Made by a program: the position numbers and the translations under genes. Below the pieces are notes generated by a model that was given only the letters and a program-made list of their open reading frames with translations, ran no database searches and was not told the origin of the DNA. Positions 54,161 through 63,909 of a stretch of 64,000 nucleotides of DNA are shown one piece after another. Source of the stretch: a bacterium (lineage in GTDB: Bacteria > Armatimonadota > Zipacnadia > Zipacnadales > Zipacnadaceae); NCBI GenBank assembly GCA_030602615.1, contig JAUVZM010000007.1, positions 1-64,000 of the forward strand, read 5' to 3'. Position 1 is the stretch's first letter. Every line of letters starts with the position of its first letter.

Positions 54161-54676
54161 TCACAAACTAACTGTCTTTGCTAAGGGGTGTGCACACACC
54201 GTATTTCGGAGTCCTTTCTCACTGAAGTGCAGGTACACCGCTGTCGTATCGAGCCGCGAGTGGCCGAGAATCTGTTGTATTTCGACCAAGCTGCACTGCG
54301 AGGCGTTGAGGATTTGCTGGATGTCTTCAACGCCAAGATACCTGGGCAGGCTCCGCGTGCGCTTGGGCACCGAGACCGCACGGACAGGATCTTCGGAGAC
54401 CATCTCTTGCTTGCGGAGGTAATCCCAGAAGCTGCGGAGTGCGTAGAGGTACCGGGCGACTGTGTTGTTCGACAGCCCCCGGCCGTGCAACTCGATGACC
54501 CATTCGCGAACCAATCTGGTGGTGACGTGGCGGGGATAGAGCAGGACATCATGGGCTTCCAGGAATTCACAAAACTGTTGCAAATCGTACTGGTAAGACC
54601 GGGCTGTCTGTGCACTATAACCTAGTTCCGCACACAGATAGACGCCAAAATCCCGGATAACTGTGTCCATAAGCAT
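54161..54676 (-). pseudogene. Tyrosine recombinase with internally deleted catalytic domain
   Basis: Intact N-terminal SAM-like domain (MLMDTVIRDFGVYLCAELGYSAQTARSYQYDLQQFCEFL) joined to ...LGVEDIQQILNASQCSLVEIQQILGHSRLDTTAVYLHFSEKG; R..K..HxxR region missing. Confidence 0.8.
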
Positions 54677-54777
54677 TGGGTTCGAGCATACCCCCCACTT
54701 GTCGAAGCGCAGCGGTGTCCAGCCCTGAACGCCGAGGTGCACATTCACAGCCCAGACTCGCATAGCTGGACTCGAAC

Positions 54778-55400
54778 ATGGCAAGCAGAGGCAACACGAA
54801 TGAAACGCAAGGCAGTAACAGCGGTGCGGGCCTCGGTTTCGAACGGGAACTGTGCCAGGCCACCGATGCGCTTCGCTCCAATATGGACGCGGCCGAGTAT
54901 AAGCACGTCGTGCTTGGCCTGATCTTCCTCAAGTACATCTCTGATCCTTTCGAGGAACAACACGCCAAGCTCCAGGCCCAACGCGACCAGCGAGCCCACC
55001 CCGGACGACCCTGACGAGTACCGAGCCGACACCATCTTCTGCGTGCCCAAGGAAGCGCCGTGGTCGAACCTCAATGCTAACGCCAAGCAGCCCCACATCG
55101 GCAAGTTTGTGGACGAGCCCCTGGTCGCGATTGAACGTGGCAACCCCTCCTTTAAGGGTGTACTCCCCAAGGAACATACCCACCCGCGCCTGGACAAGCC
55201 CCGCCTCGGCCAGCTCATCGACCTCATCGGCAACATTCGCCTTGGTGACGAGGAGAACCGTTCCAAAGACATCCTCGGTCGGGCATTTGAGTATTTCCTC
55301 TCGCAGTTCGCCAGCGCCGAGCGTAAGAAGGGCGGCCAGTTCTATACACCTCACCAGTGGGCACCCTTGACTGAGAATGTGTTATCATGGTATAATCATA
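54778..55400 (+). pseudogene. Type I restriction-modification hsdM 5' fragment, frameshifted and truncated
   Basis: [45 protein letters not shown] then (other frame) [37 protein letters not shown]...[50 protein letters not shown]. Confidence 0.9.
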
Positions 55401-55859: not shown

Positions 55860-56408
55860 ATGACAAGGCGAAACACGATGTTCTTGGCAGTGGCGGCGGC
55901 AGCATTCCTGCTGAGCACCACGCTAGCGAGCGCCGTGGTGGTCACTCTGCCTGACACGTCCCAGACCACCACCTTCACGGCCAACGTGTCGGAACAGGCG
56001 GACGTGACAGTGCCCGCGACGGTGACTTTCAATGTCACCGATGTGACCACCACCACGGACGCCACGGGCGCGGTAAGCGCGACCAGTATTGTGCTTACCG
56101 ATCTCTACGCGCTGAAGATCTCGCTTCAGGGCAACGCGGCGGCTTTCACCCCGCCTGCGGCAGGAGGAACTACCTGGGATGTGGGAGATGTCTCTTGGGC
56201 TGCGGGCACCTGGACCAACGGTACCGGGGCCGCGAATACGCTGAGCAATTCGGTCTACAGCGAGCTTGCTACCAGTGACGACAACGCTCCGTCGACCAGT
56301 AGCACCGTAACGTTCACGCTGGCGGCGAAGGCCACAGCAGACCCGGCAGTCAAGGCAGGTAACCACACGCTGATCGCTACCTGGAAGTTCGAGAGTGTCG
56401 GGCCGTAG
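55860..56408 (+). CDS. Secreted surface-subunit-like protein A
   Basis: Signal peptide MTRRNTMFLAVAAAAFLLSTTLASA; Thr/Ala-rich beta protein ending GNHTLIATWKFESVGP. Confidence 0.75.
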   Translation: MTRRNTMFLAVAAAAFLLSTTLASAVVVTLPDTSQTTTFTANVSEQADVTVPATVTFNVTDVTTTTDATGAVSATSIVLTDLYALKISLQGNAAAFTPPAAGGTTWDVGDVSWAAGTWTNGTGAANTLSNSVYSELATSDDNAPSTSSTVTFTLAAKATADPAVKAGNHTLIATWKFESVGP

Positions 56409-56475
56409 AGTGGAAAAGTGGGACTTACGGGCAGGGGAGAGTTGCCACTCCCCTGCCCCTAAGGAGGAATTACGC

Positions 56476-56967
56476 ATGAAGTGGCGGATTGTAGGGGCCA
56501 CAATTACTGTGGCACTTGTTTTCTTCTCTGCTCAACCGGGGGCGGCGGGGGGAATGGGAGAATCAGCCAATGTAACCGTCCCCGCAGCAGTGAGTTTCTT
56601 CGTCTATGATATTGCCATATCTACCAGTTCGTCCAACCAGTCGGTGAGCGCTACCGACATTAGCACGAGGATGGGCCGCGCCTTGAGAATCTCACTTCGG
56701 GCGAACGCGGAGAACTTCACTCCGCCGGTCGCGGCAGTGACCACTTGGTCGGCGAGCAACATCTCCTGGAATGCCGCGACCTGGGACAACGGCACTGGAG
56801 TCGCCGGAACGTTGAGCAGCACAGCATATGCCGAGGTTGCGCATACTGGTGGGAGCCCAAGTTCGACCAGCACTACCAATCTGGTATTTACTTTAGCGGC
56901 CAAGTCAACCATCTCCAGGGCGGGTGAACATAGCCTCAGCGCCACCTGGAAGTTTGAAAGTTTCTGA
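56476..56967 (+). CDS. Secreted surface-subunit-like protein B, paralog of 55860-56408
   Basis: Signal peptide; shares VTVPAAVSFFVYDI, ALRISLRANAENFTPP, LSATWKFESF with protein A. Confidence 0.75.
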   Translation: MKWRIVGATITVALVFFSAQPGAAGGMGESANVTVPAAVSFFVYDIAISTSSSNQSVSATDISTRMGRALRISLRANAENFTPPVAAVTTWSASNISWNAATWDNGTGVAGTLSSTAYAEVAHTGGSPSSTSTTNLVFTLAAKSTISRAGEHSLSATWKFESF

Positions 56968-57005
56968 CCACAATAAGAAGACACGGACACGGGAGGAGGT
57001 AGAAT

Positions 57006-57836
57006 ATGAAACGGCTTAGCGCAACAGTTATCGTGGCGGCTTGCTTGCTGGGGTCGTTTCGTCCTGGGCATGCCCTTGGTTTGCACTTTACTCCGATGAC
57101 TATAAGAGTGCAGGCGCGGCCCGGGCAGATAATCAACCGACTCTTCCTGTTGACCCTGAAAGAGGGGGGCCAGGCAGTTCACTTCCAGGGCCATATAGAG
57201 GACTGGTGGCGCAGCGCTGACCGACGTCAGACTTTCTATCGGCCGCCCGGCACTCTCAAGCAGTCGTGCGGCCCTTGGTGCAGCCTGGCTCCGGTCGAAG
57301 CGGCAGTATCGGAAGGAGAGACACTAACGATACGAGTCACTATAGCAGTTCCGGAAGAGGCTAATCCGGGGGGCTACTGGGCCGCCCTCACCGTCAACGA
57401 ACTGCCAGACCCACTAGAGCCGCGCCCTGAGGGCATCGTCATGCGATTCTATGCTTCCGTATCTGTAGGCATCTACGTGGAAATACCACCAGTAACTCGG
57501 AGCGCCAATATAATTGGACTGCGTTGCGATGGTGAACGTATATGGACCAAGATAGAGAACACCGGAAATACCTGGCTTCCCGTTCGCGGCCACATAGAAT
57601 ACCTGAAGTCCGGCGATAAAGAACCCTTGGCCCAATCGTCCATTAGCCCCGACGTGTCGCTGCCTGCGCCAGTAAATCCGGCGGAGTATTGGTCGGCGTT
57701 GCCCCCTGCCGAAGAATTGCCTGACGGCACATATGTAGTCAGGAGCATACTTGACTTTGGCCTGGATCACTATGTCGGCGCACAAAAGCAGATCACCATA
57801 AACCATGAGCAGCCGACAAATGAGAAAAGCGAATGA
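57006..57836 (+). CDS. Periplasmic Ig-like (PapD-like) chaperone candidate
   Basis: Signal peptide; LHFTPMTIRVQARPGQIINRLFLLTLKEGGQAVHFQGHIEDWW; two beta-sandwich-like halves. Confidence 0.6.
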   Translation: MKRLSATVIVAACLLGSFRPGHALGLHFTPMTIRVQARPGQIINRLFLLTLKEGGQAVHFQGHIEDWWRSADRRQTFYRPPGTLKQSCGPWCSLAPVEAAVSEGETLTIRVTIAVPEEANPGGYWAALTVNELPDPLEPRPEGIVMRFYASVSVGIYVEIPPVTRSANIIGLRCDGERIWTKIENTGNTWLPVRGHIEYLKSGDKEPLAQSSISPDVSLPAPVNPAEYWSALPPAEELPDGTYVVRSILDFGLDHYVGAQKQITINHEQPTNEKSE

Positions 57837-59760
57837 TAATCTTCCCGGTTTCGCGCTAGTATTGGTTATTGTTATGGTGCTTCTGGTACCAGCGTGGGGG
57901 CTGGCCGATCCCTCTTCGGAGACTGACGAAGGGCTCGAAACCTTCATTATAGAAAAGTCCCCCGAAGAACTCGAAGAGCAGGCGAAACTGCTTGCCCCTG
58001 CTCCGTCGGGCGCCCTTCCCCCTTCGGTATGGCAAAAGCAAGACCGGTTGCGCCTCACCACCGGTCTGGGATGGATGGAAGGGGAGATGGTACAGGAGTT
58101 CAGCGCGACCGGGCGTGTGCTAGGCGGTGACACGAACTTCTCTAGCATCCTATCTCTTACCAATCAAGGCACCGTGCTAGAGTACAGCCACTTGGGATGG
58201 GTGGATGAGGATGGAGGACACTCCATAGAGGCGGGCGATTTACACAGTGATATTTGGGGGCGAGTCCACGGTGTGCGTTACGGCTGGAAGCTTGCAGAGA
58301 ATCGGTGGCCCCATCTGGGCCTGTACTTGGCGAATGGTAGAGTAGGCAACCGCAGATCGGTGTTGACCTACAGCGATGGGGCAGACCTTACTGCTCGACT
58401 GCGTTTGGTTGGCGAAGTTGCCACGGATGGCGCGTATTATGCGGGACTCGGGTATCAGGGAGAAAACCTCAACCTCTACTCCTACTCTCGCGATACTCGC
58501 GGCCGCAGTGGGCATAATTATGGATTTTTCGGTTCGTACCATCTGTTCGATGAGGTCTTCCTACATTATGGCTGTGGCGAGAGACGCTCTCAAGAGCAAG
58601 GGCGGGAAAGCAGCGAAAGATGGGCCGTGCGCTTGCCCTTGACCCCCAAAATACCATTAGTGCTAGAGCGGGCGGAAAATACTTATCAGGATTCCCGCCA
58701 CACGACTCACAGTGTTATGACTACATTACCGATTGCAGACTTGCGCTTGTTGCTCCGCTACCAGGATACATCCTGGGAAGGCCACAAATTCGCAGGCAAG
58801 CTGATAACTGGGGATTATCAAAGCGTAGTATCGTCGCTGAACTATTCTCCTGACCCCAGGCTGTACTTCAACTATCAAGTTGACGTGCAGAGCCAACATG
58901 GAGGGCGAGTGTCGCACCAACGCCTGCTTAGCAGTTACCGGCCCTCCTCACGCCTCTCTTTGAACGCATACACCGGCTTCCCCGATATAGCTGATGATAG
59001 CCTTCTGCGGCTTCAGTTACGCTATAAGCTAAAACCTGACCTGAGCTTCTCGGTGGATTATGGTGATGTGGCTCCGTACCAGAGTAGAGCTGATGATAGG
59101 GAAGCTGGTCGCGGCTTCAAATTCATGTTCTCAAAGACCTTCGACGTCGCCACCCCCGCGGTAGGAGCTATAGTCCTGGGCAGGGTCATCGACCAGACCG
59201 GTCACGGAGTGCCGGGCATCACAGTAAAAGTTGATAACTACGCAGCAGTCACCAACGAGGAGGGACAATACAGATTTGAGGGGCTTCCTTCGGGTAGTTC
59301 CCAAGTGCGCGTTGATGAGGATAGCGTGCCAACCTTCTACAAAGTGCAAACCCCGCCGTTGACAATCCAGATAGCCCGCAAGAAGACTATTCAGGTCAAC
59401 TTCCGATTAGTTCCCCTCTCGACAATCACGGGCCGCGTCTACTGCGACGCAAACAGTAATGGCACATATGACGAAGGGGAGGGAGTTGAGGGTGCTGTTA
59501 TTCACGTGGACACGCGCGTTACTGCCTCCAACCATGACGGGATCTACGGATTCTACAATCTTCTGCCAGGCCGCTACACTGTTGAGTTCGATACTGAAAG
59601 GATGCCCAGGGACAATGAGAATGCTAATGGGGATGGATATGAATTGACCTCACCGCAACGAGTTCCCGTGCAGCTCGACCCCGATAAGCCGGTACTTGGC
59701 GTAGACTTCACGCTTGTGCAGAATCAGAGACCCACGATCTTCCAGGACTTGCCGGAATAA
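57805..59760 (+). CDS. Outer-membrane beta-barrel (usher-like?) with C-terminal carboxypeptidase-regulatory/SdrD-B-like domains
   Basis: Alternating amphipathic beta strands over about 430 aa; GRVIDQTGHGVPGITVKVDNYAAVTNEEGQYRFEGLPSG and GRVYCDANSNGTYDEGEGVEGAVIHVDT domains; overlaps chaperone gene. Confidence 0.65.
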   Translation: MSSRQMRKANDNLPGFALVLVIVMVLLVPAWGLADPSSETDEGLETFIIEKSPEELEEQAKLLAPAPSGALPPSVWQKQDRLRLTTGLGWMEGEMVQEFSATGRVLGGDTNFSSILSLTNQGTVLEYSHLGWVDEDGGHSIEAGDLHSDIWGRVHGVRYGWKLAENRWPHLGLYLANGRVGNRRSVLTYSDGADLTARLRLVGEVATDGAYYAGLGYQGENLNLYSYSRDTRGRSGHNYGFFGSYHLFDEVFLHYGCGERRSQEQGRESSERWAVRLPLTPKIPLVLERAENTYQDSRHTTHSVMTTLPIADLRLLLRYQDTSWEGHKFAGKLITGDYQSVVSSLNYSPDPRLYFNYQVDVQSQHGGRVSHQRLLSSYRPSSRLSLNAYTGFPDIADDSLLRLQLRYKLKPDLSFSVDYGDVAPYQSRADDREAGRGFKFMFSKTFDVATPAVGAIVLGRVIDQTGHGVPGITVKVDNYAAVTNEEGQYRFEGLPSGSSQVRVDEDSVPTFYKVQTPPLTIQIARKKTIQVNFRLVPLSTITGRVYCDANSNGTYDEGEGVEGAVIHVDTRVTASNHDGIYGFYNLLPGRYTVEFDTERMPRDNENANGDGYELTSPQRVPVQLDPDKPVLGVDFTLVQNQRPTIFQDLPE

Positions 59761-60341: not shown

Positions 60342-61526
60342 TCACAGGAACAGACGCGGGTGGCCTATCTCGATGTTACCCACTGCGATCATAAGGTCGC
60401 ACAGTCGCTCGGGGTCGTGGGTGCGGAAGGCGTAGCCGCCGTTACGAATTAGTGATTCGTTAAACTCGAAGTCGGCCCCCCCAGCGCCATACTTGTTATG
60501 CTCCTCGGCAGTGAGGGTGACGGTGTGGATTCTAATGCCTTCCGCCTCAGCACGGTCGGCAGCATCTATTGTAGCTTGCCGTCGCTGCTCAGTGATCCCG
60601 TTACTGGGACCATAAGGCATGCCGTCGCTGACCAGCACGATCGCTCGATTGCAGTTGGGGTCACCATCGGCAAGATATTGTTCAATGGCCCAGTTAATAG
60701 CTACGGCAGGGTTGGTATAGCCGTTGGGGTGGTGCGAGTTGGCCTTGTCATACATGTCATCAACTTCGGGCGGCAGGTCCTCGAACTCGGCTTTATAGAA
60801 GTCGGTCAATTCCAGTGTGAGGTGGGCTTTGGTCCAGCTCCTCCCTTTGCCCCTGCCCCGCTGCCAATCCTTGTTATATGCTATATCACTGTCGAAAGCG
60901 ACAAATCCTATCTTGTCGCCAGCGATGGATACTCCATTGACCAGGCCCATCAAAGCCCAGTCGCCCTCTATGGCATCTGCCCATTCCTCCTGGAATGAGC
61001 CGGAGGCGTCCTGGACCACTATGATCTCCACCGCATCTCGAGGCGAGGTGGAGGTCCTGACACTGGCTGCGCCCGACGCCGTTAGACCCACATGTTCCAC
61101 TCCGAATAGCTTGCCAAAGATCATCGCGATAGGTCCGTCGGGAGAGTCGGTCGTTCTGCGTGCCGTTACCTTCACCGCCACCCCCGTGAAAGTTGCAGAC
61201 CATGGGACTATCTCCTGGGTGTGGGGATCCCACCCTCCGATCTCCACGTCTACGGCGGGATCGAGCACCAACGGCCGGCCCAGTACCGTATTGGCATTAG
61301 CTATCTCAACGACGGCCTGCTGAGCTTGGTCCATATCAAAGCCCTGACGGAGTCTGGCACAGCCCGCCAGCGCAGCAGCATCTGCAACATCCTGTAGTTC
61401 CTGTTTTGCGAGGACCAAGCGGCCGACATCTATGGTGAGGGCCGCGATTCCCAGCAATCCCATCAACGCCAATACCACAATGACTACAACCGTGCCCTGC
61501 TGTGACTCTTTCTGTTCTTCCCACAT
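60342..61526 (-). CDS. TadE/TadG-like pilus-assembly protein with VWA-like domain
   Basis: QQGTVVVIVVLALMGLLGIAALTIDVGRLVLAKQELQDVADAAALAGC; VVQDASGSFQEEW; AIVLVSDGMPYGPSN. Confidence 0.85.
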   Translation of the reverse strand: MWEEQKESQQGTVVVIVVLALMGLLGIAALTIDVGRLVLAKQELQDVADAAALAGCARLRQGFDMDQAQQAVVEIANANTVLGRPLVLDPAVDVEIGGWDPHTQEIVPWSATFTGVAVKVTARRTTDSPDGPIAMIFGKLFGVEHVGLTASGAASVRTSTSPRDAVEIIVVQDASGSFQEEWADAIEGDWALMGLVNGVSIAGDKIGFVAFDSDIAYNKDWQRGRGKGRSWTKAHLTLELTDFYKAEFEDLPPEVDDMYDKANSHHPNGYTNPAVAINWAIEQYLADGDPNCNRAIVLVSDGMPYGPSNGITEQRRQATIDAADRAEAEGIRIHTVTLTAEEHNKYGAGGADFEFNESLIRNGGYAFRTHDPERLCDLMIAVGNIEIGHPRLFL

Positions 61527-61599: not shown

Positions 61600-61867
61600 C
61601 TTTTTCGCAAAGTTTGTGAAATATTACCCAATCAATTATGTATGGTTCGTGTCCAGCTGGTTGTTCTAGCCTCAACAAGGGCGTTCATATACGAATGCAG
61701 CGGGATAGCTGGCCTAGTACGCAGCGACAGTGACGACGGCCACCCAGTAAACACCGGAGCGCACAGACTGCAGGGGGATATTCTTCACTCGCCTGGAATT
61801 GACATCAGGCGTTATCAGCCGCCACAATTACGAGAAAACAGATTCGCGGATACACCACGGAAGGTGG

Positions 61868-62259
61868 TGACTTCAGTGTCCGAGGTAGTTGACTTATTGA
61901 CCGATTTGATAGCAATTCCCAGTGTCAATCCCGGCAGCAACACCAGCGCCTTGCCCCGCACCGGTCCCGTCTTCCGAGGACGCCAGGGCCGTGCCCTGCA
62001 GCAGAGCACTCTCCAACGCTGGTTTACTCTCTGGTGCCAGCGCGCCGGATTGACAACCGACAACGGCCACCGTTTCACTTTGCATAGCCTGCGCCGCTTC
62101 GCCGCCAAACAATGGCTGAACCACGGTCTTAACATCCGCCATGTCCAGATACTGCTCAGCCACAACGACCTGCAAACCACGATCCGCTACCTCAACTACC
62201 ACCTCGACGAAATCCAACACGCCGCCCAACACGTCGATTTCGGCCTATCGCCCCAATAA
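61868..62259 (+). pseudogene. Tyrosine recombinase C-terminal fragment fused to an M20-peptidase-like N-terminal fragment
   Basis: VSEVVDLLTDLIAIPSVNPGS (M20-like) then RTGPVFRGRQGRAL...FTLHSLRRFAAKQWLNHGLNIRHVQILLSHNDLQTTIRYL. Confidence 0.7.
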
Positions 62260-62511: not shown

Positions 62512-63909
62512 ATGACCAGTAGTGAACACCAGCAACTGATGGACAGCATTGCGGGGCTGTTGGACTCGCGGTGCCACTGTCAGTGTGGACGTCTTCACGA
62601 GGTGCCCACTCAGTATATCATCATCGCCCCAGGAGCGCTGGACCGTCTTCCCAAGGTGCTCGCCGAACTGAACCTGACAGGCTGCTCCCTACTAGTTGCC
62701 GACGATAACACCTATCAGGCAGCCGGGCACCGCGTCACCAGCATACTTGGGCAGGCTGGCCATCATCCCGCACAACTGCTAATTGAGCCAGAATCAGGGC
62801 AGCCGGACGTCGAGGCTACCCAAGAGCCTGTTCAACTAGTCGAGCGCGAGGCGGCCGGCTGCAATTACCTCGTTGCTGTCGGCAGTGGGACGATAAATGA
62901 TATCGTCAAGATGGCCTCGACCCGGCTGGACATTCCCTACATAGCCATAGCCACGGCCGCTTCCATGACCGGATATCCTTCGGGAGTTGCTGCCCTGCGC
63001 GTAGGAGGACTGAAGCGGAGTATTCCAGCAACACCACCGGCAGCAATAATCGCCGATATTGATGTCATCGCCGGCGCAGCACCGCAAATGGCCGCCGCCG
63101 GAATTGCCGATCTGGTCTCCCGCTCTCCCAGCAGTATCGACTGGCGACTGGCCGCGCTGCTGCGCGGCGATTACTTCTGCCCCAGGATTGCTCAGATTGC
63201 TGAGTGGCCGGACCGCGCCTGTCGCACCGTAGTCGCTGAAGTCGGCCAGAGGGATCCTGAGGCACTGGCCGTACTGATGGCTGGGCTGATGCTGGCCGGA
63301 ATCGCCATGAAGATGGCCGAGACTTCCGCTCCAGCATCTGGCGGCGGCCACTTGATTTCCCACTACTGGGACATGACAGCGGCCGTGCACGCACGCCATC
63401 GCAGCCTGCACGGGCTACAGGTGGCAATAGGGGATCTGATCTGCACTACCCTCTACGAACAGCTATGGCCGCGCCTTGACCAGGTCGACCTAGCCCAGAT
63501 AGTAGCCGATCGCCGGCCGGCCGAAGAGTTCGCCTGCCAGACTCGCCAGCACTATGCCCCACTGATTGGGCAACAGGCCGCTGACCAGGCTGTGGAAGCC
63601 GCTCTGAGCAAGTACGCCGAAGGCGAACAACTACGCAGCCAATTGGCACCGCTTAGCGCTGAGCCTGACAAGATATGGGATAAGCTGGAGGCTTGGCTGA
63701 CGCCGGCAGAGGAACTAAGGCGGATCTTCGCCGAGGGAGGGATTCCCACCACAGCAGCCGCCCTCGGTATCGGGGAGACCGAACTAGTCAATGCTTACCA
63801 CTTTGCCAGCCGCCTCCGTGCCCGTTACACGGTGCTTGACCTCGCCCACGATCTGGGGCTGCTGGATGAGTTGCGCCACGAGGTGCTCGCAGAAGCCAAT
63901 GCAGTCTGA
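62512..63909 (+). CDS. sn-glycerol-1-phosphate dehydrogenase-like protein (AraM/EgsA family)
   Basis: VAVGSGTINDIVKMAS; PYIAIATAASMTGYPSGVAAL; AAGIADLVSRSPSSIDWRL; SGGGHLISHYWD. Confidence 0.85.
   Translation: MTSSEHQQLMDSIAGLLDSRCHCQCGRLHEVPTQYIIIAPGALDRLPKVLAELNLTGCSLLVADDNTYQAAGHRVTSILGQAGHHPAQLLIEPESGQPDVEATQEPVQLVEREAAGCNYLVAVGSGTINDIVKMASTRLDIPYIAIATAASMTGYPSGVAALRVGGLKRSIPATPPAAIIADIDVIAGAAPQMAAAGIADLVSRSPSSIDWRLAALLRGDYFCPRIAQIAEWPDRACRTVVAEVGQRDPEALAVLMAGLMLAGIAMKMAETSAPASGGGHLISHYWDMTAAVHARHRSLHGLQVAIGDLICTTLYEQLWPRLDQVDLAQIVADRRPAEEFACQTRQHYAPLIGQQAADQAVEAALSKYAEGEQLRSQLAPLSAEPDKIWDKLEAWLTPAEELRRIFAEGGIPTTAAALGIGETELVNAYHFASRLRARYTVLDLAHDLGLLDELRHEVLAEANAV

Follow-up and report, generated by a model that had tools for sequence, protein, structure and literature searches.

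Four tandem genes at positions 55860-59760 of a 64,000-nucleotide stretch of Armatimonadota DNA (contig JAUVZM010000007.1, positions 1 to 64,000; the whole stretch is called the window) raise the question of whether an operon that is laid out like a chaperone-usher locus of the kind that produces E. coli pili, but whose products lack sequence-profile similarity to the usher, chaperone and subunits of such systems, encodes a pathway of that kind. An earlier note, made from the sequence alone, had read the locus as a chaperone/usher-like layout and a divergent or alternative export system. This was supported by the analysis, in which the barrel protein did not come out as a porin or TonB-type channel, the chaperone candidate was modelled with immunoglobulin-like (Ig) folds and the gene order was found in relatives. 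We conclude that the operon probably encodes a chaperone-usher-like pathway of fibre assembly that had not been recognised before and that stands outside those families by sequence. Shared with the chaperone-usher systems (FimC/FimD, PapD/PapC, the archaic CsuC/CsuD, the alternative CfaA/CfaC) are a two-Ig chaperone and a 24-strand barrel with two C-terminal beta-sandwiches (all predicted here), small secreted beta subunits, the operon layout and the occurrence of an N-terminal extension on some subunits but not on others; apart from the missing profile similarity, the barrel differs in having no plug and in its N-terminal domain, which the window protein lacks and which in some relatives resembles Cu_amine_oxidN1.

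The operon and its paralogous subunits

The host genome is a metagenome-assembled genome of Armatimonadota (2.45-Mb draft). It encodes one Omp85 protein (E 3e-43), an outer membrane is therefore expected, and no match to the usher profile PF00577 was found in it. The open reading frames (ORFs) confirmed four tandem genes on the same strand, the last two, encoding the chaperone candidate and the barrel protein, overlapping by 32 bp. Clear, strong Shine-Dalgarno sequences (ribosome-binding sites, RBS) are present at the SubA, SubB and chaperone genes (AAAGGAGGG, AAGGAGGAA and GGGAGGAGG), and all four proteins have Sec-type N-termini, as judged by inspection. Single-protein searches against Pfam and NCBIfam gave no profile or family match beyond the C-terminal domains of the barrel protein. 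The features are, with AF2 denoting AlphaFold2:

55860-56408, + strand: SubA, secreted beta subunit of 182 aa with signal peptide and N-terminal extension (ORF, RBS, SubB homology)
55935-55985, + strand: N-terminal extension of SubA, VVVTLPDTSQTTTFTAN, candidate donor strand (motif conserved in SubA-type, absent from SubB-type subunits)
56476-56967, + strand: SubB, secreted beta subunit of 163 aa, paralogous to SubA, N-terminal extension absent (ORF)
57006-57836, + strand: periplasmic chaperone candidate of 276 aa with two Ig-like domains (AF2 model, Foldseek, family alignment)
57435-57485, + strand: chaperone residues 144-160, IVMRFYASVSVGIYVEI, candidate G1-type donor strand (model, alternation pattern in the family)
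57805-59760, + strand: predicted usher-like outer-membrane protein of 651 aa (Pfam, AF2 model, Foldseek)
57928-57978, + strand: pre-barrel peptide EGLETFIIEKSPEELEE, residues 42-58, candidate chaperone-recruitment tail (barrel family alignment)
58042-59154, + strand: predicted 24-strand beta-barrel, residues 80-450, without plug insertion (AF2 model)
59167-59415, + strand: C-terminal domain 1, CarboxypepD_reg/transthyretin-like (Pfam, AF2 model)
59419-59724, + strand: C-terminal domain 2, SdrD_B/CarboxypepD-like (Pfam, AF2 model)

SubA and SubB, which the earlier note had described as two related signal-peptide beta proteins, were indeed 47% identical over 139 residues (E 2e-35 for the one pairwise comparison), the alignment starting at SubA residue 43; by sequence, they are paralogues. 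Extra copies were not found in a search of their own genome, and SubA was 52% identical to the subunit at the equivalent operon position in genome G274. In an alignment of 19 subunits from ten genomes, the stretch preceding the core was ~20 residues longer in subunits with genes upstream of the chaperone than in subunits with genes downstream of the barrel. Counted from where the hydrophobic core of the signal peptide ends, the spacing to a conserved proline amounted to 33-40 residues upstream (n=9) versus 15-24 downstream (n=9), without overlap. The motif of the extension, TT(F/L)TA(N/T)V.EQ, was kept in SubA-type subunits and missing in SubB-type subunits. For SubB of the window the spacing was 19 residues, indicating that the extension is absent. 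The two pre-chaperone subunits in each of the distant operons of G249 and G078 comprise, by eye, one with the extension and one without. In classical chaperone-usher systems an N-terminal extension is found on the polymerising subunits but not on the tip adhesin, and the spacing split reproduces this feature of their pilins. Since SubB lacks the extension, it could accept but not donate a strand, which fits a tip or initiator subunit, and we regard it as a candidate for this or another non-donating role. Direct orthology between SubB and the subunit encoded downstream in the relatives was also considered; the tree gave no support for this.

Predicted folds of the chaperone candidate and the barrel protein

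The 276-aa protein had been proposed to be an Ig-like periplasmic chaperone, which agrees with its AF2 model (8 sequences, mean predicted local distance difference test (pLDDT) 79.5) of two beta-sandwich domains (residues 25-160 and 167-265). In a Foldseek search of the PDB the nearest structures were those of Enterococcus faecium WxLIP (9i25, 9i1y; best 8.1e-10), followed by the chaperones FimC, CsuC, CfaA, DraB and Caf1M (1e-8 to 1e-6), with other tandem-Ig proteins (RbmA, Cep192) barely behind these. Residues 144-160 form the last strand of domain 1, at its edge and after a 17-residue loop, and their hydrophobic/polar alternation across the family is among the two strongest alternating stretches; by analogy, they are a candidate for a strand resembling the G1 donor strand of PapD-like chaperones. 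There is no obvious Arg8/Lys112 pair of carboxylate-anchoring basic residues in the protein; Tyr243, Arg246 and Lys261 of domain 2 are invariant among eight close relatives and could act as in non-classical chaperones.

The WxLIP matches suggest another way to read the operon, as a diderm counterpart of the WxL/WxLIP (DUF916-DUF3324) clusters of Firmicutes, in which the Ig protein would bind small beta proteins and keep them stable at the surface or the peptidoglycan, while the barrel would anchor them or export them as monomers, without polymerisation. The top three Foldseek matches were WxLIP structures, and PF06030 (DUF916) matched 5 of the 12 chaperone-family members weakly (best E 0.0006, below the cut-off), and also the operon chaperones of G248 and G249, but not the window protein. 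Both kinds of cluster combine a tandem-Ig protein with two small beta proteins, and in a published model the WxL sandwich is completed by a strand from WxLIP (PMC10599100), an interaction that would be of the same kind as G1 strand donation. However, membership of SubA and SubB in the WxL family was rejected since no subunit matches the WxL domain, and this domain (PF13731) was not found across 291 Armatimonadota genomes. Furthermore, the chaperone candidate lacks the C-terminal transmembrane helix of WxLIP, and neither an outer-membrane barrel nor the extension split is part of WxL clusters as described, so that we consider this reading unlikely. Possibly, the operon represents a separate class of chaperone-usher-type fibre assembly, found only or mainly in Armatimonadota, whose ancestors were a strand-inserting pair like WxLIP/WxL and a plugless barrel.

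The fourth protein of the earlier note was a 651-aa barrel with C-terminal regulatory-like beta domains. Pfam recognised its C-terminal part only (CarboxypepD_reg, residues 457-535, E 2.4e-16; SdrD_B, residues 541-599, E 3.1e-13), and the AF2 model (11 sequences, mean pLDDT 77.7, predicted template modelling score (pTM) 0.57) has 24 consecutive strands within residues 80-450 and then two beta-sandwich domains; residues 1-77 are mostly of low confidence. As modelled, this is the plan of an usher. Foldseek searches of the PDB with the 651-aa model returned FimD and PapC at all of ranks 1-12 (E 6.6e-16 to 8e-10), with porins and TonB receptors trailing from ~4e-7. An ordinary porin or receptor barrel that happens to lie beside unrelated secreted beta proteins would agree with the generic matches of the barrel taken by itself (OprD, PfeA and others, E ~1e-6), but it is very improbable: the conservation of the gene order counts strongly against it, and the overlapping chaperone and barrel genes of the conserved operon speak against it too, as do the fused double transthyretin-like C-terminus and the ushers that come first in Foldseek.

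Relatives with a complete N-terminus have barrel proteins of 672-945 aa. A Cu_amine_oxidN1-like N-terminal domain is present in three of them; the window protein is without it, and the shorter proteins of G101 and G102 have no room for it. The pre-barrel peptide (DGW..L.I.KSPEEL) is kept in most relatives, even in those without this domain. A comparison for chaperone recruitment is the N-terminal tail of FimD, and the peptide may, by analogy, recruit the chaperone. The C-terminal domains of 4 of the 11 barrel-family members matched CooC_C (PF15976), the C-terminal domain of CS1/CFA-I ushers, weakly (best E 0.06, far below the curated cut-off). PF00577 matched no member of the 11-barrel alignment, and the PapD_N and PapD_C profiles did not match the window chaperone, the sole match being PapD_C in one distant relative (E 0.0032). 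A PDB sequence search with the chaperone, subunit and barrel profiles gave nothing meaningful except for the C-terminal domains. The earlier note was thus right, at the sequence level, in assigning none of the proteins to FimD, Csu or WxL by motif, and since there is no profile link to Usher, PapD or WxL the system is filed under none of these, although it would work like a chaperone-usher pathway.

Several observations weigh against the chaperone-usher-like reading. In hhalign comparisons the barrel family showed no sequence relation to six E. coli ushers (probability 1%), nor did the chaperone family to E. coli PapD chaperones (1.4%); the stretches that did align are not claimed as homology, since they were generic Ig matches in non-equivalent domains (column-shuffle null). 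The AF2 models were built on 8-11 sequences, and the template modelling (TM) scores of the Foldseek matches of the barrel protein were low (0.26-0.36). The PapC pore without C-terminal domains (2vqi) ranked 25th, among porins, so that barrel-only structures do not discriminate and the usher ranking stems from barrel and C-terminal domains jointly. A plug domain is absent, strands 6 and 7 of the model being only 8 residues apart and the longest inter-strand gap being 14 residues, and no Pfam match to a PapC_N-like N-terminal domain was obtained for the barrel protein. The structure models cover the barrel protein and the chaperone candidate, and a missing strand in SubA and SubB is inferred. 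Finally, the core of SubB was 43-49% identical to upstream-type subunits (one long-branched outlier apart) versus 28-40% to downstream-type subunits; because it thus resembles the SubA type more than the downstream type of the relatives, SubB may be a young duplicate.

Distribution in Armatimonadota

The phylum was searched with the barrel part, since the whole 651-aa query returned only generic CarboxypepD domain matches. Of the 290 other Armatimonadota genomes, 9 contained barrel relatives, and the order subunit(s)-chaperone-barrel(-subunit) recurred in the neighbourhoods of these and in G246, G248, G249 and G078, altogether in ~14 Armatimonadota genomes. Gene order, which the earlier note had wanted checked, is therefore kept in many relatives, including distant ones, and the four-gene arrangement is more than chance. 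Some loci are incomplete: the operon of G271 is split over two contigs and those of G270 and G115 are cut by a contig end. A second, divergent type with a barrel protein of ~925-970 aa and N-terminal NEW3-like Ig domains occurs in ~9 genomes (G004, G006, G017, G018, G115, G242, G261 and probably the contig-cut G022 and G025). The two types are homologous by hhalign (barrels 99.4%, E 1.6e-21; chaperones 99.5%, E 8.6e-23). None of six genomes of the same genus has the type of the window and two have the second type, demonstrating a patchy distribution. A scan of a genome collection with the single barrel protein gave no match, and with the chaperone alignment it gave five loci, all from Armatimonadota, within the limits of the scan's peptide patterns; the named relatives were Armatimonadetes, Chthonomonas and Capsulimonadaceae.

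Left out of these counts were tandem-Ig proteins of 550-650 aa matching PF06030 or the chaperone in other clusters (G019, G024, G062 and others). Three such clusters (L068 2354-8951 in G062, L111 in G024 and L112 in G019) encode tandem-Ig proteins of 575-612 aa, some of them near small secreted beta proteins, and that of G024 passes the PF06030 (WxLIP) cut-off; a third variant or a separate surface complex is possible.

Three groups of chaperone-usher systems are distinguished, classical, alternative and archaic, of which the archaic is the most widespread (PMC4654587). The operon of the window could be a true but extremely divergent archaic member whose sequence signal has eroded, as its gene plan and predicted folds are the same and the phylum does contain a genuine archaic operon (L096 1077-5176, contig C105 of G274; PF00577 E 6.5e-17, the sole one above the cut-off among 291 genomes). 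However, G274 holds this operon in addition to a system of the window type (L053), so that the two are distinct, and together with the missing profile link, the absent plug and the different N-terminal domain this makes the proposal quite unlikely. Another operon that looks pilus-type, with an 868-aa usher-sized protein, was seen in G146 (L113).

Proposed assembly and neighbouring genes

In the chaperone-usher-like pathway that we propose, SubA and SubB would cross the inner membrane via Sec, and the two-domain Ig chaperone would cap these incomplete beta-sandwiches in the periplasm, supplying an edge strand in which hydrophobic residues alternate. The chaperone would then bring the subunits to the 24-strand barrel. 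There the chaperone-subunit complex would be held by the two transthyretin-like domains at the C-terminus, and the barrel would export SubA and SubB through the outer membrane. Strand exchange would join the subunits, the extension of SubA filling the groove of the preceding subunit, and SubB, which could accept but not donate, would fit the role of tip or initiator subunit. The product would be a thin surface fibre of SubA/SubB polymer, probably serving adhesion or biofilm formation.

If a system with the chaperone-usher plan, in a little-studied phylum, has no sequence relation to the known ones, either the origin of the pathway is pushed back or there was more than one origin. A barrel that lacks the plug and has another kind of N-terminus would test which parts of an usher are essential. 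The structural link to WxLIP offers a concrete hypothesis for the origin of periplasmic pilus chaperones, and a WxLIP/WxL-derived class, if true, would connect Gram-positive WxL surface complexes with Gram-negative chaperone-usher pili. No paper in the library searched pairs 'Armatimonad' with 'chaperone-usher', which is no proof that the system has escaped description.

Remnants of Xer-type tyrosine recombinases lie on either flank of the operon, one at 54161-54784 (- strand), in which the N-terminal domain is followed directly by the last part of the catalytic domain, and one at 61642-62259 (+ strand), comprising the C-terminal half only; together with the patchy distribution they hint at a mobile history. 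Adjoining the operon, 60342-61526 (- strand) encodes a TadE/G-like protein (Pfam Tad, Tad_C) that contains a von Willebrand-type region and is possibly a separate surface or pilus component. Glycerol-1-phosphate dehydrogenase is best known from archaeal lipid synthesis, and a relative of the NAD(P)-dependent enzyme is encoded at 62512-63909 (+ strand; NCBIfam PRK00843, E 1.1e-59, below the cut-off).
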